Shown: positions 15,337-28,556 of the stretch, one piece after another
Layout of the letters: the number at the start of each line of letters is the position of its first letter
Position numbering within the stretch: position 1 is the first letter of the stretch
Assembly: GCF_009795805.1 (NCBI RefSeq)
Contig: NZ_WTEY01000005.1
Span: forward strand, 62,001-126,000
DNA: 64,000 bases
Direction of reading: 5' to 3'
Origin: Gilliamella sp. Pra-s52
Lineage (GTDB): Bacteria; Pseudomonadota; Gammaproteobacteria; Enterobacterales; Orbaceae
The notes under the pieces: model-generated
Database searches by the model: none
What the model was told of the DNA's origin: nothing
The model's input: only the letters and a program-made list of their open reading frames with translations
Program-made: the position numbers and the translations under genes

Positions 15337-16650
15337 TTAATTTGCAACCATATTTATAAAACTCATAATAGGTTGATTATAAATTTGATCAACATAGTTA
15401 CTTTTATAAGCATTTTGAAAGCAAGATGATGACATACTTGAGTCAGATTTTACGGACGGATATCCATCGGCTTTAAACTCTAATTCACAACCCATTAATG
15501 ATGGCTTTCTTTCACCTATTAGAACCCATTTTATCTTTTGTTGATAACTTTCAGTTTTTATATCTTTTGAGCGTTTTTCAAATTGATTGATTTTGTTAGT
15601 TATATTTTGATTATATGGATCAATTATTTTTTCTACAATACCTCTGACTATGCCATTTTCTACTCCCTCCAAATAGGCTAAAAGTTCCTGATAATTTTTA
15701 ACAGATAATGTCGTCTTTTTACCATCCTTAGTATTTAAGGTTATATTCTTGGCTGAATTACCTTGAAGAAGATATTCGAAAACCAATCTAGAATAATCAT
15801 TATACAGATGAACTGATATAGAACCATTATATCTATAAAGCGTAACTAATTTCGGATCTTCTCTTTTATAAAGATCTAAATTATGCTTGCTCAATATTTT
15901 TTTGATAGAAGTTAAATCTTCTTTAATTTGTTTTATTCTTTTAGCAAGCTCTTTATTACTAAAGTCACTGTTACTGGTTGGCGCATAATGAAAATAATCA
16001 AAATCAAAAAAAGGATCACAACTTAGAAGTCCCCTAGTTTGATCATCATTATAGCCATAGATACCAGTGGCCACATAATCACTTACTTCCATTTTTATTG
16101 TTGCTTTATTTGATAAAAGATATTTCCTATTTTCCTGATAGCGAGCTAAAGCATTGCTTTTTTCTATTTCAAGAAGTGCTTTCTTCAACTCATCATAAAT
16201 AACCAGTTTAGCTTTCGCTTCAATGTAGCTTCTAGCTTTTGCATCAATGTGATTTTTATACACCGTATAATGGGGATATTTGACATTCTTATTCTTATTT
16301 CGTTCTTCCTCTTCTTTAAATTTTGCATAATCATCTAATGTAATATTGATATTTTTATCTACAAGCATAGTTTTTAAATTTCCAGCTATACCAGAAAATG
16401 TTAGGTTTAAAAATTGATTTGGACGATCCTTTTTAAATTCACAAGTATATTCAACAATATTTCGATCTCGTTCATCTTTATATGAATCCCATTTCGTTTT
16501 ATTACAGATATTTCGGTTATCAAGCGCATTACCGACAGTAAGAGTTGAGTCGACATTGTCATACACATAATCTTTAACTTGCTTAACCTGTGATGAGTCT
16601 CCGCATGCAGTAAGAATCAGTACTGATAAAACAATTGTTATTTTTTTCAT
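15337..16650 (-). CDS. Orphan lipoprotein of the island
   Basis: Protein of 437 aa that I do not recognise. The N-terminus MKKITIVLSVLILTACGDSS is a clear lipoprotein signal with lipobox LTAC, cleaved before Cys16; Gly-Asp follows, and Asp at +3 rather than +2 leaves sorting unclear. The mature part is hydrophilic, with a helical lysine/glutamate-rich middle (LDDYAKFKEEEERNKNKN) and several cysteines (CNKTKW, CEFKK, CDPFF, GCELEF, SCFQN) that could form disulphides. Comparable lipoproteins occur in CP4-57-like islands, but that is a resemblance in context only. Confidence 0.7.
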   Translation of the reverse strand: MKKITIVLSVLILTACGDSSQVKQVKDYVYDNVDSTLTVGNALDNRNICNKTKWDSYKDERDRNIVEYTCEFKKDRPNQFLNLTFSGIAGNLKTMLVDKNINITLDDYAKFKEEEERNKNKNVKYPHYTVYKNHIDAKARSYIEAKAKLVIYDELKKALLEIEKSNALARYQENRKYLLSNKATIKMEVSDYVATGIYGYNDDQTRGLLSCDPFFDFDYFHYAPTSNSDFSNKELAKRIKQIKEDLTSIKKILSKHNLDLYKREDPKLVTLYRYNGSISVHLYNDYSRLVFEYLLQGNSAKNITLNTKDGKKTTLSVKNYQELLAYLEGVENGIVRGIVEKIIDPYNQNITNKINQFEKRSKDIKTESYQQKIKWVLIGERKPSLMGCELEFKADGYPSVKSDSSMSSSCFQNAYKSNYVDQIYNQPIMSFINMVAN

Positions 16651-16784
16651 TGTTATTCCTTATAAAAAAAAGAATTAATTAGCTTTACTTAAATTGTATT
16701 TTTGTGTGGTAACCAAAACTTAACTTGAAACATACTAGCTATTGTTTTAATTAATTTTATATTTTCATCAATTATTTAAATGAA

Positions 16785-16843
16785 GTCATATCGTTTAAAC
16801 AGATCAATAAGATCTTATTGATCGTCAGAAACGATCAATAAAT
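16785..16843. repeat. Island palindromic repeat, copy 1
   Basis: Begins GTCATATCGTTTA and contains the perfect 22-bp palindrome GATCAATAAGA/TCTTATTGATC inside outer arms ATCGTTT / AAACGAT. It matches the repeat at 18786-18844 in both flanks and structure. It lies ~20 nt downstream of the RadC-like gene. Confidence 0.7.
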
Positions 16844-16863
16844 ATTAAATAAATTTTCAAAAA

Positions 16864-17316
16864 TTACCCATTCACTTGTTCAACAAAGGAAAAATATGAT
16901 TGTTGACCAATCACAATGTGATCTAATACTCGGATACCAACGATATTTAATATTTCTGTTAGCTTTTGATTTATATTACGATCTGCATTACTAGGTTGCG
17001 ATTCGCCTGATGGATGATTATGAGCAAAAATAACTGCTGCTGCATTATACTTAAGCGCTTGCTTAATTATTTCTCTGGGATGGATTTCCACAGAGTTAAT
17101 TGTACCCATAAAAAGTGTTTCTACTTTAATTAACTGATGTTGATTATTTAGGTACATAGCAACAAAATGCTCTCTTTCTTTTTGTTCTAATTTTAGTCTA
17201 AGGTAGTCAATGACTTGATTAGGTTTTGTGAATTGGTTATTTTCTATTTTCATCTGCTTTTCGAGCAATTTTAACGCTATTGTCACAATGCGCTTTGTTG
17301 AATAGGAAGTTTTCAT
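16864..17316 (-). CDS. RadC-like JAB/MPN-domain protein (YkfG/YeeS type)
   Basis: A 150-aa RadC-family protein lacking the N-terminal HhH part of full-length RadC, as is usual for island copies. The JAMM metal motif is complete: HNHPSGESQPSNAD (H-x-H, Ser, Asp). Start at 17314-17316 (MKTSYSTKR) is preceded by AGGAGA at 7 nt; a longer in-frame start has no ribosome site. These proteins accompany antirestriction and P4-like genes; the biochemical role is unknown and a function in DNA repair should not be assumed. Confidence 0.88.
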   Translation of the reverse strand: MKTSYSTKRIVTIALKLLEKQMKIENNQFTKPNQVIDYLRLKLEQKEREHFVAMYLNNQHQLIKVETLFMGTINSVEIHPREIIKQALKYNAAAVIFAHNHPSGESQPSNADRNINQKLTEILNIVGIRVLDHIVIGQQSYFSFVEQVNG

Positions 17317-17433
17317 TTTTTCTCCTGTTAAGACTGAGCAAAGCATAATGTCTTTCATGTAAAAACTGAAATTAATGAGATAAATGTATAAATAGGTGAA
17401 TTTTTAGATAATTGAATTATTAGTGTTATTCAG

Positions 17434-18024
17434 CTAATAGATTTGATTAAATTGTTTTTTAGCAAATTGGCCAATGCGATAAGTAATAATGCGATCAACA
17501 ACAGCTCCCATCACACCACCAAAAATCGGGATCACTTTAATTAACTTTAAGCTATGCTTTGCACTTATAATACTAATAAGCTGTTTAATGACCGATAGAC
17601 TTATTTTACGAATTACTTCATTTGGCTGTTTCATCAATGTAGCTAAACAAAACTGCTGTAATCTTAACTTGCTTGCCATCACACATAATGATAAGAAAAT
17701 TAAGATTTTGATTCTTTCATCATACACATCATGGCCTTGCAAGATAGCAATGGTTGTAACGAGCCTCATTTGAATAAACAAGACACTTAAGGCGTTTGTT
17801 GGCAAAGTTATAGGTAAACTTGCAATCCCGCCTAACCCTGTGATAAAACCTGTAGCTGTTGCTTTGTCTGTTTCATGTTTGATTAGTTTATCAAGATTAT
17901 CTGAATGTAAAGGAAAATTGGCTTTATGTTGCTCGGCTAATGTATAAGCAGAGGAAAAACCATAACTACCGGTCAAACAAAGCTGATAGAGTTTATCAAG
18001 TAGTAAAGGTAATTTATCTGACAT
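17434..18024 (-). CDS. EcsC-family protein
   Basis: A 196-aa protein with the EcsC-family pattern: an amphipathic start, a glycine-rich hydrophobic stretch GFITGLGGIASLPITLPTNALSVLFIQMRLV (about 59-89), and a C-terminal IPIFGGVMGAVVDRIITYRIGQFAKKQF. Family members are found next to mobile-element and membrane genes, but no reaction is established. Its ATG is 1 nt after the stop of a 33-codon ORF with a strong ribosome site, implying translational coupling. Confidence 0.8.
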   Translation of the reverse strand: MSDKLPLLLDKLYQLCLTGSYGFSSAYTLAEQHKANFPLHSDNLDKLIKHETDKATATGFITGLGGIASLPITLPTNALSVLFIQMRLVTTIAILQGHDVYDERIKILIFLSLCVMASKLRLQQFCLATLMKQPNEVIRKISLSVIKQLISIISAKHSLKLIKVIPIFGGVMGAVVDRIITYRIGQFAKKQFNQIY

Positions 18025-18025
18025 A

Positions 18026-18127
18026 TCATGCTTCCTTATTTGTCGACTTAAATAAAGAATGAAAATGATTGTAAGAAGGCTCTAATAAATAAAATAAGGT
18101 GTTTTGTAATATTTGACGATTTAACAT
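18026..18127 (-). CDS. Small 33-aa ORF leading the EcsC-family gene
   Basis: MLNRQILQNTLFYLLEPS... ending STNKEA. AAGGAGTG lies 4 nt before the ATG, a better ribosome site than most genes here, and the TGA is separated from the EcsC ATG by 1 nt. No homology recognised. It may be a small protein or simply a translational lead-in for its neighbour. Between it and the next gene (18128-18371) I see no gene. Confidence 0.45.
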   Translation of the reverse strand: MLNRQILQNTLFYLLEPSYNHFHSLFKSTNKEA

Positions 18128-18371
18128 GGTACACTCCTTATAAAAATGTTAATTGAACGGACATATTGGTATGTTCGACTAATGATATCTATTTAAAATT
18201 ATTTATAATAAGAGTGTTGAAACATATTGAGAAAATATGAAGCAAATCGGATAAATGAGTTTGCTTCATGAATAAGATTAGAGGAGGAGTTCAATATTTT
18301 GTGTCATTTGGGTAAACTGTGTAGCAAAAGAGGAAATGACACAGAATTATGAACAGGAGCCTCATTTATTA

Positions 18372-18566
18372 CTAATACTTCTTGTTTTTTTCATAACGAG
18401 CTAAGCTTTTCTTAGCTTTTGCTTTTTGCTCATCTGTTGCTTTATCTGAATTTAAAATGGAGTTAGCAGAACTTACAATAACTGATGGAAGTACTTCTGT
18501 CACCGTAAAGTCTCCTACTTGGTAAAGTTTTTTACCCAGCCATCTAACACTACTCATAATAGTCAT
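18372..18566 (-). CDS. Hypothetical 64-aa basic protein
   Basis: MTIMSSVRWLGKKLYQVGDFTV... with a lysine-rich C-terminal helix (KATDEQKAKAKKSLARYEKNKKY). Start at 18564-18566 has GGAG 8 nt upstream and overlaps the zinc-ribbon ORF by 17 nt; an ATG at 18555-18557 is also possible. An upstream in-frame start would run through the zinc-ribbon gene in another frame and was rejected. No family recognised. Confidence 0.55.
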   Translation of the reverse strand: MTIMSSVRWLGKKLYQVGDFTVTEVLPSVIVSSANSILNSDKATDEQKAKAKKSLARYEKNKKY

Positions 18567-18717
18567 CTTTATACTCCGAACATTCTGGACATGGAAATGT
18601 AAAATTAACATCTCCACCACATACAGGGCAATTTTCGGGATGTGGTTCACCGCCATATTCTAATGAACAAGGGATGACTCCTGTACCATTGCATTCGCCA
18701 CAATCAGATTTAGCCAT
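18550..18717 (-). CDS. Small zinc-knuckle protein (55 aa, DnaJ-like CxxC motifs)
   Basis: MAKSDCGECNGTGVIPCSLEYG...ENCPVCGGD...FPCPECSEY. Three CxxC pairs (CGEC, CPVC, CPEC) plus a lone Cys17 and the CNGTGVIPC spacing recall DnaJ zinc-finger repeats, so zinc binding is likely. AAGGAGAT lies 8 nt before the ATG at 18715-18717. It is short and partly overlapped in another frame, so automatic annotation may miss it. Function unknown; co-translated with the 64-aa gene. Confidence 0.7.
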   Translation of the reverse strand: MAKSDCGECNGTGVIPCSLEYGGEPHPENCPVCGGDVNFTFPCPECSEYKDDYYE

Positions 18718-18785
18718 TTTATTTATCTCCTTAAATTATTATTAAATTAAAATACATCATTATTATTAGAAATATATTGTGCTCT

Positions 18786-18844
18786 GTCATATCGTTTATA
18801 ACGATCAGTTAGGATCTGATTGATCGTTATAAACGATCAATTAA
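18786..18844. repeat. Island palindromic repeat, copy 2
   Basis: Begins GTCATATCGTTTA like copy 1 and forms a perfect 17-bp inverted repeat ATCGTTTATAACGATCA / TGATCGTTATAAACGAT around a 13-nt loop. The TGA stop of the following minus-strand gene (18837) is its last base, so it also acts as that gene's 3' hairpin. Confidence 0.7.
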
Positions 18845-19307
18845 TTTGGTTGAGAGTATGCATGCTGTTAATATACAAAGTATGAAGAGGATTATGTTTC
18901 TTCCACGAAAGTTGTGCTAACTCAGATAAAGCATTCTGAGTTAGTTTTTTTTCAACATTAATACCATATCCATCAGTTTCATTCTTCCAAAGATTGGTAA
19001 CGGAATTCATAATAACGTTATAATTTGCATATTGTTCTGAGCTAAAGTACAACATGGTTGGAAAATAAAAGCCGTATTGTTTATTAAAAGCCATTACCCA
19101 AACAATGCTAAGAATATGATTGGAAAGTAATGTTAAATCAGACAAGTTCAACATATCCATATACGCATCTATTCCATATTGCCTTTGATAGGCATCGTCA
19201 TGATAGGCGAAATCCACTCTGACTGGATATAACTTCCCATAACTTGTAAGTAACGATATATGATGAACTTTTAGCTTATTTAGTATTAGGTCATAATGGT
19301 TGTCCAT
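18837..19307 (-). CDS. YagK/YfjJ-like protein, HUH motif lost
   Basis: A 156-aa protein whose first half parallels the next gene upstream: KLYPVRVDFAYHDD here versus KILPIRIDIHYAND there, and QYGFYFPTMLYF (77-88) where the neighbour has EHIHFHSVFYV. The two histidines of the HUH site are absent (Phe and Pro instead), and no SYLAK tyrosine motif is present. Probably a diverged paralogue of the inovirus Gp2/YfjJ-type replication protein that no longer cleaves DNA. Ends within a long palindrome. Confidence 0.55.
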   Translation of the reverse strand: MDNHYDLILNKLKVHHISLLTSYGKLYPVRVDFAYHDDAYQRQYGIDAYMDMLNLSDLTLLSNHILSIVWVMAFNKQYGFYFPTMLYFSSEQYANYNVIMNSVTNLWKNETDGYGINVEKKLTQNALSELAQLSWKKHNPLHTLYINSMHTLNQIN

Positions 19308-19432
19308 TTTTTATTCCTTTATATGAATTGTATCTATAGCAATTAGTCTGTTTTGTTGACTTATTTGTATAAACATACTTTTAAAGATTTATAGTGATTT
19401 TCCAAAATGAAGGAAATGTTTTTTTGAGGTTA

Positions 19433-20032
19433 TTAAATACGGGAAGAAATTAAAAATTTATTCAGACCAAGTGTTCTAGGTTTTCCTCGATGACTTGGAG
19501 GTGGGACTTCACTTAAAAATAGACAATCGCTATAACACTTTTTAAAAAATGATTTCTGTTCTGTTTTAGCTAAATAACTAAGCATATAACAAACAGAACG
19601 AAATGCTTCATCATCGTGATGATTTATCACCCTTAGCCCATTAATATGATAATTATTCCGCTGACAATCATATAAATAACCTTTAGTCAGTTCATACCAT
19701 GCACGTTCCAGAGCAACGTAAATAGGATAGTATTTTTGTCTTTTTTGACCATTTACATAAAAAACAGAATGAAAATGGATATGTTCATTCTGATTAAATT
19801 CCATAACAACAGCATACCCTACAATATCAAGTTCAAGTTGCATAGCTTGATAGAGAAAGTACATTATTTCTTTTTTGGTTGTTTCAATATCAGTATTGAA
19901 CTCATCATCATTAGCATAATGAATGTCGATTCGAATCGGTAAAATTTTTGAGTATCTATCTTGTAGCTTATTTAGGTGTGCAATGAGTTGATCATTGAGT
20001 TGTTTATTAATAGTAAAGTTTTTATTTTGCAT
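19433..20032 (-). CDS. YagK/YfjJ (inovirus Gp2-like) HUH replication protein
   Basis: A 199-aa protein with an N-terminal strand LPIRIDIHYA, the HUH metal motif EHIHFHSVFYVNG (His84/86/88), LERAWYELTKGYLYDC and the C-terminal FRSVCYMLSYLAKTEQK, where the SYLAK tyrosine is the expected nucleophile. This is the layout of YagK/YfjJ C-terminal domain proteins in CP4-type islands and satellites, thought to be rolling-circle initiators; activity here is inferred. The gene start is preceded by a 9-bp-arm inverted repeat. Confidence 0.75.
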   Translation of the reverse strand: MQNKNFTINKQLNDQLIAHLNKLQDRYSKILPIRIDIHYANDDEFNTDIETTKKEIMYFLYQAMQLELDIVGYAVVMEFNQNEHIHFHSVFYVNGQKRQKYYPIYVALERAWYELTKGYLYDCQRNNYHINGLRVINHHDDEAFRSVCYMLSYLAKTEQKSFFKKCYSDCLFLSEVPPPSHRGKPRTLGLNKFLISSRI

Positions 20033-20462
20033 GTAGTTGCCATTATCAAATTAGAGTTATTTGATAAGGAGCAAGATTATTTTTTTACAGTTTTAGTAAC
20101 TGATGGTTTACTCAGATAGAGGGTTATTGGTGTTATTTATCTAATAATTTTCTTTTATAGAATTAATATTAATTAACCTTAATTCACTATCTCAAACAAC
20201 AGTAAGGTAACAAATTTCACTTTAAAAGCTCAATTAAGATTAAACATATAATAAAAATTACTCTAAAAGCACGAGATGAGCGTTAATGATCACCATTATA
20301 ACTATATTTTCCCCTACATTTATTGATAATAATATTATTATATTTTCATAAAAATTTTATGTTAATAACACAGATTATCTTTTTGTTTTAGATTATTTAT
20401 TTACATAAATATTACTTAGTGATAGTTTAATTATTAATCAAAATAAAATTTAAGAGTAATTT
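20033..20462. promoter_or_regulatory. Divergent intergenic region with operator-like palindrome
   Basis: About 430 nt separating the HUH gene (minus) from the 321-aa gene (plus), with no ORF I can support. At 20043-20067 there is a perfect inverted repeat TTATCAAAT-tagagtt-ATTTGATAA just upstream of the HUH gene start. Near the plus-strand gene, TTTACA is followed after 17 nt by TAGTTT, a possible promoter. The two divergent genes are likely regulated from here. Confidence 0.5.
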
Positions 20463-21428
20463 ATGAACTATTCTGTCCCACCCCAAAATATAAAATACAT
20501 ATCAGAATCAAATTTAAATATATGTAAAAAATATAACCACTATATTGATAATTACATGCGAAAGTTAGGGAAACCAATCAGACGCCCTGGATATAAAATT
20601 AGAACACCATCAGAATACTGTGATTTTTTAAATCACTATATTTTATCTTTACATTATGATGAAAAAGAATTAAACAAATTTATTAATGAAATGATTGCTT
20701 CATGTAAGCAAGATATTGATGACTTTAGTTGGTTAGAAAATGATAGATTATGCTATTATTCATGGCTATCTATTATGCTAAATCAAGTAAAAATAGATGA
20801 TGATATTATAAGAATAAACCCTTGCCCTCCGGCAATGCCTCCACTCGCCACAGATTTAATCAATACACCATTAAAACTTATCCCATCTAGTTCTGACATG
20901 CGAGCGAAAATCGTTAAAGAATATATTGCATCATTAAACAATGATGACATACGTTTTATAGCGATTAATAATATAAAATCAGCATGGTCAATTATTGAAA
21001 AAATCAAAGTTCCTTTTAAGTTTTCAATTGATGATGAACAACAAATTAATTGGACATGGAACTATATTTTAACAAAACTGAAAAATAAATCGCCTTGGCA
21101 ATACGATCTATATATGAATTACATAGTGCCAACAAGTATTGCGGAAAAATATCATGCTATTTTTATTATCCATGATTATTTCTATGCATGTAACGAAGAT
21201 ACACACAAAGTATTTTGTATTGATTATAAAAAAGCCTTAAGTCAAAAAAAATTTAGAGAGAAGGAAGGTGTTAAATCAATCAACGTTCAACTTGATATAA
21301 AAATAAAAGAACAACTTGACCAACTATTAGACTATTACCAATATAGTCAACAACGTTTATTGGAAGTATTAATTAGTGAGCATTATAAATCAGTTCAGCA
21401 TAAATTAGATAAAAGCAATTTCTCTTAA
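20463..21428 (+). CDS. Orphan 321-aa island protein with RHH-like C-terminus
   Basis: The only plus-strand gene of the island. I do not recognise its first ~270 residues: an early basic segment (RKLGKPIRRPGYKIRTPSEY) and a helical middle. The C-terminal segment KSINVQLDIKIKEQLDQLLDYYQYSQQRLLEVLISEH reads as a strand plus two helices, like a ribbon-helix-helix DNA-binding unit. This, and its position beside the att site and opposite a replication gene, suggest a regulator or accessory replication protein; that is inference. Confidence 0.65.
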   Translation: MNYSVPPQNIKYISESNLNICKKYNHYIDNYMRKLGKPIRRPGYKIRTPSEYCDFLNHYILSLHYDEKELNKFINEMIASCKQDIDDFSWLENDRLCYYSWLSIMLNQVKIDDDIIRINPCPPAMPPLATDLINTPLKLIPSSSDMRAKIVKEYIASLNNDDIRFIAINNIKSAWSIIEKIKVPFKFSIDDEQQINWTWNYILTKLKNKSPWQYDLYMNYIVPTSIAEKYHAIFIIHDYFYACNEDTHKVFCIDYKKALSQKKFREKEGVKSINVQLDIKIKEQLDQLLDYYQYSQQRLLEVLISEHYKSVQHKLDKSNFS

Positions 21429-24472: not shown

Positions 24473-24501
24473 AAACCACTCGTTATGCGAGTGGTTTTTT
24501 T
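24473..24501 (+). terminator. Terminator of groESL
   Basis: Stem AAACCACTCG / CGAGTGGTTT with a 5-nt loop and a run of seven T after it, 35 nt past the groEL stop. Confidence 0.92.
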
Positions 24502-24725: not shown

Positions 24726-26360
24726 ATGAGTGTATCTTCAAGAAAAAAAGTGGCTAGTATAGAACAAAATGATTACGCGGCTAGACAACGACAAAAAACA
24801 ACTAAAACAGAAAGCCCACTAGATAACATTAAAGATAATACTTTTTTTAAAGTTATTTTTTCAGATAGCCTTTCACTTGAACAAAAAGTAGAAGAAGTCA
24901 CTCATATTTTAGAATTTACTGATAATAAAGAGGCTGATCGTGCTAAAATTCAGGAATTTGATACCTTTAAAGAATATTTGCAATCCATTTCAGAAGAGAT
25001 GTCTAAGCAACGTATCGAAATGACCGATACCGAAGTGTTTGCTGAGTTACAAAGAGTTTATGCGGATTTTAATAATGATCTTAATGACTTTATCGAAAAA
25101 ATCAAACCTCTTACCGAACTTACCGATGCGCTGTATAACTTACGCCAAAATGGTGAAACTCGCAATGCTTTAGCTCAAATCAAAGCCGATCAAGAATGGG
25201 ATGAAGAAAAAGCGGCACAAAAAATCAATGTTCAAAGCGAAATTACCAATATAGAAAAACAAATATCTGACTTACAAAAAGAAATAGTGTTATTGCAGCA
25301 GGATAAAAAATTCTTTGGTCTTGGACAAATTAAAGCGGCATCAAAAGAAAAAATTGATATTAATGAAGAAAAAATAGCCAAGTTAAGAGATCAAATACAA
25401 AATAAACATAAAGAGTTAAATGATATCCAAACAGAAATTACTCAGCGCCATGAGCAACGTACCGAATCAATGGATGTTGAAAAATTAAAAGAGTTACTGA
25501 ATTTAACCTCAGAACAGCATACATTGCGTCAGGCCGATATGGTTGAATCAGCGTTAAAATTTGTTAATCAAGGTAAAGAGCGTTTTGGTGCGATTCGTAA
25601 TCACCTTGAGAAAATGGTTAAACAAATTGAAGGGCTTAGCGACAATAATGGCAATATGATACAAATTTATGCCATTATGAATGAAGCCACTAAAAAAGTT
25701 GAAAAAGTACATCGGGAACGTAGAGAGGAACTTGAAAATAAAGATGTTGGCGATAATCTATTAGAGTCAATGAAGCTTGATGAAGCAAGACGTAATTTAG
25801 ATGAACATATTGACACAGTGTCAACTGCAACAGTTGATACCATGCAAACTTATGGTGAATTAACAACTGAAGCCATCAAAATTCGCAATATGCAAGCAGC
25901 AACCAAAAAACAAGTTGAAAGCGCAAGAGCAATGCATTCACGAGGTATTGCATCTGTAGCCTCTCAACTTAGTGTTGTGGTAACAGCTGTTAATTCCGCT
26001 GCAATTAATGAAGCACAATCAATGGCGAGTAATACTTTAGCCGAAATGACACGAGTCACAAACGATATTGCAAAAAATGAAGCAATACGAATTGCAACTG
26101 GGCGTGATGAAATTAATAATGATTTAGAAGCTATGTTACAAAACTTAGCAGAATTTGGTGATACCCAAAGAGAGGCGACTGAAATTACTCGCTCAGCACT
26201 AGAAACAATGCGTGCGAATTTAGATGAAATTGAAAAAATGTCTAAAGACGTTCAAAACGATACGCGTGAATTTATTGCGGTGACAGGTGATGTTTTATCA
26301 GAAAAATCTGAAACCAAAAATGAAAGCACTAGTGGCACAACGTCCCCCTTTAAACTGTAA
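24726..26360 (+). CDS. Large coiled-coil protein, partner of the Clp-like ATPase
   Basis: A 544-aa soluble protein with no signal peptide or membrane segment. Long heptad-rich stretches occupy about residues 55-120, 155-250 (ITNIEKQISDLQKEIVLLQQDKK...INEEKIAKLRDQIQNKHKEL) and 290-530. The C-terminal third has alternating Ala/Thr/Asn helices (ATKKQVESARAMHSRGIASVASQLSVVVTAVNSAA), vaguely like toxic-anion-resistance (TelA) or chemoreceptor-type helical bundles. I cannot name a family with confidence. It precedes the AAA+ gene by 14 nt with AAAGGAA between, so the two probably form one complex or adaptor-unfoldase pair. Confidence 0.75.
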   Translation: MSVSSRKKVASIEQNDYAARQRQKTTKTESPLDNIKDNTFFKVIFSDSLSLEQKVEEVTHILEFTDNKEADRAKIQEFDTFKEYLQSISEEMSKQRIEMTDTEVFAELQRVYADFNNDLNDFIEKIKPLTELTDALYNLRQNGETRNALAQIKADQEWDEEKAAQKINVQSEITNIEKQISDLQKEIVLLQQDKKFFGLGQIKAASKEKIDINEEKIAKLRDQIQNKHKELNDIQTEITQRHEQRTESMDVEKLKELLNLTSEQHTLRQADMVESALKFVNQGKERFGAIRNHLEKMVKQIEGLSDNNGNMIQIYAIMNEATKKVEKVHRERREELENKDVGDNLLESMKLDEARRNLDEHIDTVSTATVDTMQTYGELTTEAIKIRNMQAATKKQVESARAMHSRGIASVASQLSVVVTAVNSAAINEAQSMASNTLAEMTRVTNDIAKNEAIRIATGRDEINNDLEAMLQNLAEFGDTQREATEITRSALETMRANLDEIEKMSKDVQNDTREFIAVTGDVLSEKSETKNESTSGTTSPFKL

Positions 26361-26374
26361 TAAAGGAATGCATA

Positions 26375-28504
26375 ATGTTATTAGTTAGAGGGCGTGAATA
26401 TTTAGCGCAGTATCCTAATTTTACTTTAGTTGGCAGGGAGCATGATTTAGAACGAATATCGTCTATTCTTATTCGAAAATCATCCAACTCACTTTTATTA
26501 ACAGGACCTGCAGGGGTAGGTGTTTCAATGCTTACCCTTGGTTTACAAGCTATTAAAAGTAGCCCCGATACACCGTTTGATTTGATTGTAAAAAAGCTAT
26601 TTTGGTTGAATTGTGATGCACTATTTTCGAGTGGTGACAGCGCTAAGATTAATAATGAGTTTCAAAGTATCTTAAAAAAGTTAAAGCAAACGCCTGAATC
26701 TGTGCTAATTATTACCGATACGGCTAATTTTTTAGAGGGAGCACATAATACAGGTAATGCTCATTTTATCAATGCGTTAAATAACGCCGATAAATCAAGT
26801 AATTTTCAAGTTATTTTAGAAGTGCGAGACGATAAGCTTAGTAGTGTATTAAAAGCTAGTACCAAAATGCCAGAACTTTACACACTTTACGATGTTAAAG
26901 AACCGGTGGGAGATGATTTGAAAGCGATTGTCTCAGTGGTAGCAAAAGACCTTTCTGAACATCATAAAATTCAAATTACTGAAGATGCTATTGATGAAGC
27001 TATACACTTAACCAGTAAGTATCGTGATAGTTTAGGTTTGGGAGGAGCACAACCTCAAAGAGCAATTTCATTGCTAGATCGCGCACTGGCTAGTTACCGA
27101 CAACTTACGCATAAACAGCATCCTAAAATTGTTGAATTAATGGATAAGATTGCAAAAAGTACTAATGAAGTGGAACAACAAGATTTGCAACAACAACTTG
27201 AGCAATGGCAAAAAGATTGGCAAGAATTAAAGTCAGAAATTAATAAAACTTATCAATATCAACGTGATGCTGAAACATTACGTTTCCAATTGCAAGATGA
27301 AATCACTCAATTGCAAGAAGAAGAGGATAACAGCAATAATTCACAACCAACTACCATAAAGACATTTGCTCAATTTACTGCTGGTGGATTTGATTCGCCT
27401 GCAGTGGCTAAATTAAAAGAAAAGATTCGACAAATCGATACAGAAATTGCTCAGAATAACAATCAACATCAAAAATTGGTGATGTTAGCCAATAAAGATT
27501 TGAGGCTTAATCGTCAAGAGGTGATTACTGAATTTAGTAAAGTTTCAGGAATTCCTGCAAATAAACTTGATGAAAATGAAGTTGAAAATTTGATTAATTT
27601 GGAAGCAAATTTATTATCACGAATCTTTGGTCAAGATAGTATTGTTAAACATGTTGCTAATTCAGTAAAAGTTGCTAAAGTCGATGAACTAGAAGAATCA
27701 GGTCCTGCGATGTCCTACTTGTTTTTAGGGCCATCAGGGGTGGGTAAAACCGAAATGGCTAAAGCATTAGCGAAGTATGTCTATGGTGATGAAAAGTCAT
27801 TAGTTCGTTTTGATATGTCTGAATACATGGAAAAACACGCTGTCGCTAAATTGATTGGTGCACCACCAGGATATGAAGGATTTGAAGCTGGCGGTATATT
27901 AACTAACTCAGTTAGAGCAAAACCCGTTGGTATCTATCTATTTGATGAGATAGAAAAGGCTCATCCTGATGTATTTAATATCTTTTTGCAGATTTTGTCA
28001 GATGGTCGGTTAACCGATAATGTTGGTCGAACAGTCGATTTTTCTGATATTATGATTATTATGACTTCAAATATCGGACAACCTTACTATTTAGATCCTA
28101 ACCTTACAGATGAAGAAGCTCGTGGATTGGCGACAAATGAACTCAATAATACTTATCGTTCGGAATTACTTAATCGGTTTAATGGTCGTGAAAATATTCT
28201 CCATTTTAAACGTTTGCCTATGGAAGTAATTGAGCAGATTATTTGTCGCGAAATTAATAAGTTGAATCAAGCATATCAGCATCGAGGTTTTACTATAGAA
28301 ATATCTGATTCTAGTATAAGTGCATTTTGCCATGATCATTACGATTTAATTCGTGGTGCTAGGGGATTACCTGGTTATATTAAAACGAATATTAGGCCAT
28401 TTATCGTAAATCATATTTTACAAAACCCTAATGATAAAGGTATATTCAGTGCAGTTTATAATCAACAAACCCATAGCTTTGATATGACATTTTGTAAAAT
28501 TTAA
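26375..28504 (+). CDS. ClpB/ClpC-like AAA+ protein with inactive first ATPase domain
   Basis: A 709-aa HSP100-like protein without the N-terminal Clp_N repeats. First AAA domain (about 17-245): Walker A reads GPAGVGVS (44-51), with Val50 in place of the essential Lys, and Walker B reads IITDT instead of DE, so ATP hydrolysis is unlikely. A coiled middle region spans ~250-375. The second domain is intact: GPSGVGKT (452-459), YLFDEIEKAH (521-530), pore-loop-like PPGYEGFEAGG, arginine finger region NRFNG and sensor-2 GARGL. Not a canonical ClpA/B/C/X. Probably an unfoldase or remodelling motor with its coiled-coil partner; no ClpP-binding loop stands out. Confidence 0.82.
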   Translation: MLLVRGREYLAQYPNFTLVGREHDLERISSILIRKSSNSLLLTGPAGVGVSMLTLGLQAIKSSPDTPFDLIVKKLFWLNCDALFSSGDSAKINNEFQSILKKLKQTPESVLIITDTANFLEGAHNTGNAHFINALNNADKSSNFQVILEVRDDKLSSVLKASTKMPELYTLYDVKEPVGDDLKAIVSVVAKDLSEHHKIQITEDAIDEAIHLTSKYRDSLGLGGAQPQRAISLLDRALASYRQLTHKQHPKIVELMDKIAKSTNEVEQQDLQQQLEQWQKDWQELKSEINKTYQYQRDAETLRFQLQDEITQLQEEEDNSNNSQPTTIKTFAQFTAGGFDSPAVAKLKEKIRQIDTEIAQNNNQHQKLVMLANKDLRLNRQEVITEFSKVSGIPANKLDENEVENLINLEANLLSRIFGQDSIVKHVANSVKVAKVDELEESGPAMSYLFLGPSGVGKTEMAKALAKYVYGDEKSLVRFDMSEYMEKHAVAKLIGAPPGYEGFEAGGILTNSVRAKPVGIYLFDEIEKAHPDVFNIFLQILSDGRLTDNVGRTVDFSDIMIIMTSNIGQPYYLDPNLTDEEARGLATNELNNTYRSELLNRFNGRENILHFKRLPMEVIEQIICREINKLNQAYQHRGFTIEISDSSISAFCHDHYDLIRGARGLPGYIKTNIRPFIVNHILQNPNDKGIFSAVYNQQTHSFDMTFCKI

Positions 28505-28529: not shown

Positions 28530-28556
28530 AAACTGTTACCAATAAGGTAACAGTTT
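28530..28556 (+). terminator. Stem-loop after the Clp-like gene
   Basis: An 11-bp stem AAACTGTTACC / GGTAACAGTTT with a 5-nt loop, 26 nt past the stop. The T-tract after it is short (ATTTC), so termination may be partial. Confidence 0.65.

Follow-up and report, generated by a model that had tools for sequence, protein, structure and literature searches.

A Clp/Hsp100-type ATPase family with a dead first ring and a linked coiled-coil partner in Gilliamella and phages: a probable ClpP-independent remodeller

A stretch of 64,000 nucleotides from the bee-gut bacterium Gilliamella sp. Pra-s52 (Orbaceae; assembly GCF_009795805.1, contig NZ_WTEY01000005.1, positions 62,001 to 126,000 of the forward strand; hereafter the window) contains two adjacent genes that are considered here: CC, encoding a coiled-coil protein, and AAA, encoding a Clp-like AAA+ ATPase with two ATPase domains, D1 and D2 (Table 1). 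With a rough probability of 0.6, their products form a dedicated, ClpP-independent remodeller of the Hsp100 type, which has a dead ring for docking, one motor ring and, ancestrally, a membrane anchor encoded by a third gene (M) that is found outside Gilliamella. In this machine the D2 ring would be the sole motor, while the D1 ring would be a conserved pseudo-ATPase platform and most likely the place where CC docks, perhaps via a flexible tail with a terminal Pro-Phe (PF) motif. M, present in nearly all relatives, would tether the machine to the inner membrane; the pulling force would act on assemblies of CC or on proteins presented by CC. The cassette would have moved between giant phages and proteobacterial chromosomes, with Gilliamella harboring it at one site and without M. 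We infer the hexameric state of AAA, the contact between CC and D1, the docking of the tail, the placement at the membrane and the substrate.

The AAA family was studied in an alignment of 55 full-length members, comprising 13 from Gilliamella (the window copy and 12 others), eight of viral origin and 34 from other bacteria; one row lacks the start of D1, and the D1 Walker counts therefore run over 54. An earlier note on this DNA, made from the sequence alone, had described D1 in the window as lacking the Walker A lysine (replaced by Val50) and the Walker B glutamate (replaced by Thr116), with D2 intact. This was confirmed, the Walker B Asp115 being retained, and the loss proved to be conserved. 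None of the 54 members has lysine in the Walker A column, which is occupied by cysteine (30), valine (19) or else R, T, A, S or L, and none has glutamate in the Walker B column (T, M, A, F, S, V, Y, I or L instead); close homologues with an intact D1, named beforehand in that note as contrary to its reading, were absent from these 54. In all 55 members, the first arginine of the ERRF arginine-finger motif of ClpB's D1 is replaced by E, D or Q, and the D1 pore-loop tyrosine column is a gap. Four ClpB and one ClpV were aligned alongside as controls, and in all five the D1 Walker motifs are intact. A dead D1 characterises the family as a whole. Judged by these motifs, D1 is without the usual way of nucleotide binding and only D2 is predicted to be able to turn over ATP. 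Because the usual nucleotide binding has been lost and D1 has nevertheless been kept, D1 is probably a platform.

The selective pressure acting on the pair was estimated from 11 Gilliamella copies as the ratio of nonsynonymous to synonymous substitution rates (dN/dS), which is rough here as dS is near 1. Median values were 0.077 for CC and 0.052 for AAA (55 pairs each) and, within AAA, 0.052 for D1 (55 pairs), 0.037 for D2 (55 pairs) and 0.065 for the linker (48 usable pairs). CC, AAA and both rings are under purifying selection, and the dead ring is maintained rather than eroding. A mere decay of a redundant Clp, to which the relics in four congeners described below might point, is hardly credible, since the losses are family-wide, recurring in phages and in bacteria of several phyla (according to their records), and since the dN/dS of D1 is low. 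To our knowledge, the double-ring Clp machines described so far rely on both of their rings. A family in which a dead ring has been kept under strong selection, next to one coiled-coil partner and usually a membrane subunit, allows the contribution of a passive ring to be tested directly in a simple bacterial setting.

D2 has retained its whole equipment in the 55 members: Walker A lysine and threonine, Walker B aspartate and glutamate, the sensor-1 asparagine, the arginine finger and the sensor-2 arginine are present in all, and the pore-loop aromatic residue is tyrosine in 54 and phenylalanine in one. The domain is a Clp-type module (PF07724, AAA_2, E 2.3e-55; PF10431, ClpB_D2-small, E 6.2e-9), and AAA can be aligned with ClpB over residues 18-682. 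Clp_N, reported as missing in the earlier note, was indeed not among the best 25 of 31 Pfam families for AAA. The protein matches seven NCBIfam Clp models, ClpB, ClpA, ClpV, ClpK and ClpG among them, far under their cut-offs, with 393.5 bits against 1232 for ClpB (TIGR03346), 362.4 against 993 for ClpA (TIGR02639) and 336 against 885 for ClpV/TssH (TIGR03345), whereas the genome's own ClpB (1247 bits on a partial stretch) and ClpV (994 bits) pass theirs. The family also forms a clade separate from other Clps in the AAA tree, and the claim that AAA is not a housekeeping Clp is borne out. Two competent ATPase domains define the class 2 Clp/Hsp100 proteins; by motif, D1 is dead in 54 of 54 members, and AAA is for this reason a variant and not a standard member of that class.

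The best match among the PHROG families was phrog_4871 (residues 8-693, E 1.9e-160), for which the table gives only "ATP-dependent protease". This label stands against the absence of a ClpP loop: the IGL/LGF-type motif, by which the ClpP-binding loop is defined, was found in none of the 55 members in the D2 stretch between sensor 1 and arginine finger. A ClpP-dependent protease subunit of the ClpA/ClpC type, suggested by an annotation as ATP-dependent protease in one record of the Agrobacterium phage Atu_ph07 and by the ordinary Clps that score highest with a D1 profile (ClpA-length proteins, one of them typed closest to ClpA), is very unlikely, given the missing loop and the distance to the ClpA cut-off. 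AAA shares the double-ring Clp architecture and a catalytic D2 with ClpB/Hsp104 and ClpA/ClpC. Unlike them, it is without Clp_N, D1 catalytic residues and the ClpP loop, and it is linked to CC and usually to M.

The linkage of CC and AAA was investigated in 52 bacterial loci, a lower bound obtained by scanning 84,980 species genomes once with CC patterns, and in viral contigs. The order CC-AAA on one strand holds for all 13 Gilliamella loci, for 39 of 40 loci of other bacteria and for all 17 viral loci; a lone CC in Motilimonas (L119) is the one deviation. Of 35 genomes of the genus, 14 contain an intact CC, and these 14 are also the ones with an intact AAA, which in one case is truncated by the end of a contig. 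The cassette is rare: of 369 gammaproteobacterial genomes, CC was found in two, the own genome included (one of 368 others). A profile of D1 only, built from members beside CC, recovered the same two genomes at 380 and 423 bits, the next score being 115 bits, and in viral contigs it identified 14 loci, all with CC upstream, on nine new contigs and five known from the CC scans. These gene-neighbour counts and D1-only scans support CC as a dedicated partner of AAA, as had been proposed. No description of the pair or the cassette was found in the open-access full-text literature among the matches listed. On one contig (L068/L130, IMGVR_UViG_3300044705_000123), a reading frame matches the N-terminal part of CC only (91 bits, profile positions 46-151 of 560); AAA and M were not found within the available stretch.

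CC itself gave no match above noise in Pfam, NCBIfam, PADLOC or PHROG, and no match in plasmids. Its structure model is weak (mean predicted local distance difference test, pLDDT, 72; predicted template modelling score 0.46), with low confidence at residues 1-29, 451-489 and 520-540. The most distinctive feature is found at the C-terminus, where 56 of 71 copies have PF among their 14 terminal residues; the CC bodies, about 31,300 residues in total, contain 18 PF. Two copies that are not directly beside AAA (the first copy of L084, and L119) lack the motif. Owing to this enrichment at the C-terminus and to the lack of PF in the copies not beside AAA, we infer that the tail is a candidate docking peptide. 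Motilimonas also carries a second, diverged CC (L084 6930-8546; L119 9854-11443), with 25-27% to the CC of the window.

Known helical families were compared with CC. TelA (PF05816) gave no Pfam match at E up to 1 and an hhalign probability of 0.2%, the comparison side consisting of four sequences only, one of them partial; viral against bacterial CC, used as control, gave 100%. PspA/IM30 and ESCRT-III were rejected as well (no Pfam match; hhalign 0.5% against three PspA sequences). A fold search against the PDB gave no match at E 0.001, and fold comparison led to bundles of a pore-former, syntaxin and CorA, the best with Z 11.8, root-mean-square deviation (rmsd) 3.3 and 229 aligned residues, where helical bundles need a Z of about 13. 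A specialised remodelling machine, as the earlier note had suggested, is still the likeliest role for the pair; two of the tasks it had considered, toxic oxyanions and secretion, found no support. A coiled-coil protein next to an AAA protein, together with a faint likeness between CC and TelA that was noted by eye and not confirmed by Pfam or profile comparison, would favour a role in oxyanion (tellurite) resistance or secretion, yet such a role has a very small chance of being correct: TelA failed as described, no Ter family was present among the few neighbours scanned against Pfam, which is not a survey, and AAA falls far short of the ClpV cut-off that the genome's own ClpV passes.

The third gene, M, was searched for in stop-to-stop reading frames wherever at least 900 nucleotides were available after AAA. 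It lies downstream of AAA in 36 of 36 such loci of other bacteria and 15 of 16 viral ones, and in none of 12 in Gilliamella. The only viral cassette with room and without a recognisable M (L205 3397-7118) is also the one with the lowest CC score (321 bits). No match to the M profile was obtained in the 35 genomes of the genus, compared to E 6.5e-70 in Motilimonas (G047); among 60 relatives, the sole other match was weak and stop-riddled (G043). M has a long helix at its N-terminus, one membrane helix, and a beta domain in which four cysteines are conserved. A 19-residue stretch with hydropathy above 1.6 is present in 32 of 33 rows, the structure model is confident (pLDDT 91.5; helix at 105-138), and the beta domain is probably extracytoplasmic.

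Three M proteins scanned against Pfam gave no match. In one profile comparison, DUF1523 (PF07509) matched weakly (100 columns, probability 25%, E 7.6e-4); both have a membrane helix followed by a soluble domain, M having in addition the four cysteines, and a remote kinship is possible. The beta domain resembles OB folds weakly (residues 123-257; best Z 8.1, rmsd 4.9, 98 aligned residues; many others at Z 6.7-7.7). The best match of M in the PDB had an E-value of 0.012, and in a viral library two were found at E 0.001 or below, namely its own relative in Atu_ph07 (9.9e-24) and one unnamed protein (2.7e-4).

In Vps4 with ESCRT-III and in NSF with SNAREs, an AAA motor works at a membrane together with a helical protein dedicated to it. 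The layout of the cassette is alike, but CC has no profile relation to PspA/IM30 and its fold matches are too low. Another parallel is Pex1/Pex6, for which the available portion of a report describes a catalytically inactive D1, a D2 motor and binding to Pex15 at the membrane (PMC10518020). By motifs only, AAA shares the dead D1 and the active D2, and M, linked by gene order only, would be the counterpart of Pex15, an anchor that recruits Pex1/Pex6 with the D1 side turned towards the membrane. Pex1/Pex6 differs in that it is a heterohexamer of eukaryotes and that ATP is still bound by its D1 (PMC10518020), and the likeness is one of working, not of kinship.

Several observations weigh against a remodeller built in this way. 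Fifteen of the 71 CC copies have no PF motif, and 13 of these stand in normal cassettes. The sequence of CC is compatible with a substrate, an adaptor or a scaffold. Gilliamella has kept the pair without M, which makes the anchor dispensable; the same lineage, lacking the membrane part, offers a natural experiment. With regard to the linkage, the bacterial CC counts are conditional on the CC pattern used to find the loci, and the independence of the D1 profile is partial, as it was made from CC-linked members, so that distant relatives with a dead D1 may be missed.

The cassette was found in 17 viral contigs, one of which is the isolated Agrobacterium phage Atu_ph07. Its gp492 is a true relative of AAA (46%) and its gp493 is CC; gp492 is recorded as ATP-dependent protease in one Atu_ph07 record and as ClpB protein in the other. 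In the available part of the Atu_ph07 paper, gp492 is called ClpB and listed with Clp-like proteins (PMC6102473). A giant-phage comparison names ClpA and ClpX and, separately, TelA, with no mention of this cassette in the accessible part of its text (PMC7824862), and a Sinorhizobium giant phage is described, in the portion of the report at hand, as having two Clp genes like those of Atu_ph07 (PMC11242549). The present analysis adds a three-gene module common to giant phages and bacteria, whose ATPase is now labelled ClpB or protease in phage genomes. Seven of the 17 contigs exceed 200 kb, on which size the label "giant" rests, the others being shorter pieces. A terminase was detected in eight of 14 viral contigs tested. 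The contig nearest to Gilliamella (L061/L127) has no terminase and only weak PHROG matches (10 proteins), and its viral label rests on IMG/VR. Two sister phage contigs (L064 4538-6509; L126 7326-9283) carry a DnaJ-domain gene and a second gene just upstream of CC; the J domain in L126 is under the Pfam cut-off, and the second gene appears vWA-like by eye and has no Pfam match.

All 13 Gilliamella rows of the CC tree group together (100/100). Their sister is phage contig L127 (94/89), followed by Plastoroseomonas (100/100), and they are nested inside a clade holding all eight phage rows; the program issued a warning about long branches. In the AAA tree, which has seven Gilliamella rows, the same nesting is supported at 98-99 (Shimodaira-Hasegawa-like approximate likelihood-ratio test only), rows L197 and clpA_L216 (wrong reading frames, branch length 10) being disregarded. 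Since both trees nest Gilliamella among phage copies, a phage-related source of the Gilliamella cassette is likely, with transfer in that direction presumed.

In Gilliamella the pair is flanked by groEL (upstream) and mntP. The groEL-mntP site was inspected in 20 of the 21 genomes of the genus without the pair (G005 was left out). In 12 of them, groEL and mntP are directly adjacent (77-204 nucleotides); four contain relics of CC or AAA (G008:C64, G010:C44, G022:C35, G033:C38; two at contig ends), which are different pieces in different species; of the remainder, three are rearranged, and in G034 the two genes lie further apart, with no match in between. This distribution fits one gain followed by repeated loss.

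The proximity of groEL might suggest a general stress disaggregase, ClpB-like and tied to groEL. The similarity of AAA to ClpB over its whole length and the DnaJ-domain gene upstream of CC in the two sister phage contigs, in one of them above the Pfam cut-off, would agree with this. However, a hairpin separates groEL from the pair, the genome has its own ClpB, and the dead D1 is also without arginine finger and pore-loop tyrosine. Moreover, when the neighbours of 61 loci were clustered, the groEL cluster occurred only in Gilliamella, so groEL provides no functional clue. Altogether a stress disaggregase appears unlikely.

A role in phage conflict, which is compatible with the remodeller mechanism proposed above, is a possibility of lesser weight: giant phages would turn the module on functions of the host or on superinfecting phages, while bacteria that had acquired it would use it for defence. 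The 17 viral contigs with an isolated phage among them, the patchy presence with relics in Gilliamella, and neighbours that, apart from groEL, are common to related lineages only are in agreement with such a role. On the other hand, the PADLOC matches of AAA (PDC-M37B and DolB) are equally strong for the housekeeping ClpB and hence Clp-generic, there was no specific match of AAA to a known anti-phage system model in PADLOC, and CC and M gave nothing meaningful there. A bolder scenario is more doubtful still. In that case a membrane-anchored AAA+ with one motor, a phage-born counterpart of Pex1/Pex6-Pex15 or Vps4-ESCRT-III, would serve giant phages by assembling on its own CC polymer or bundle at the inner membrane and dismantling it, proteobacteria would have taken it up more than once, and Gilliamella would have put an anchor-free form to a new cytoplasmic use.

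Table 1. Features of the CC-AAA locus and its surroundings (coordinates of the window)
Feature	Position	Strand	Description	Basis
CC	24726..26360	+	544 amino acids, all-helical coiled-coil partner	alignments and structure model
CC C-terminal tail	26337..26357	+	TTSPFKL, conserved PF motif, low model confidence	alignment, model
AAA	26375..28504	+	709 amino acids, double-ring Clp/Hsp100 ATPase without N domain	
D1	26375..27112	+	pseudo-ATPase ring domain, residues 1-246	alignment; dN/dS 0.052
D1 Walker A	26504..26527	+	degenerate, GPAGVGVS, Lys replaced by Val50	family alignment
D1 Walker B	26702..26722	+	degenerate, VLIITDT, Glu replaced by Thr116	family alignment
D2	27614..28444	+	intact ATPase motor, about residues 414-690	Pfam AAA_2 and ClpB_D2-small; alignment
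D2 Walker A	27728..27751	+	intact, GPSGVGKT	family alignment
D2 Walker B	27932..27949	+	intact, ending in DE	family alignment
Hairpin	24473..24497	+	terminator-like, in groEL/CC gap	hairpin scan, 11-pair stem
Inverted repeat	28530..28556	+	3' of AAA, followed by T-rich sequence; likely terminator	read from sequence, not listed by hairpin scanner

CC and AAA are separated by 14 nucleotides on the same strand in the window. Because of this short gap, the hairpin after groEL and the inverted repeat after AAA, the pair appears to form a separate operon of two genes. The co-transcription assumed in the earlier note is in line with this layout and draws nothing from promoter-like sites, which are at chance level in the region (23 against 25.5 expected); by count, the scan for terminator-like sites did no better than on shuffled sequence (one against a shuffle mean of 3.0). 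Further upstream, adjoining fxsA-groEL, positions 15337-21428 of the window hold an island with genes for a RadC-like JAB protein, an EcsC-family protein and unknown products. Matches to a replication protein and to YagK/YfjJ in this island are weak and below cut-off, and it looks like a small integrated element.

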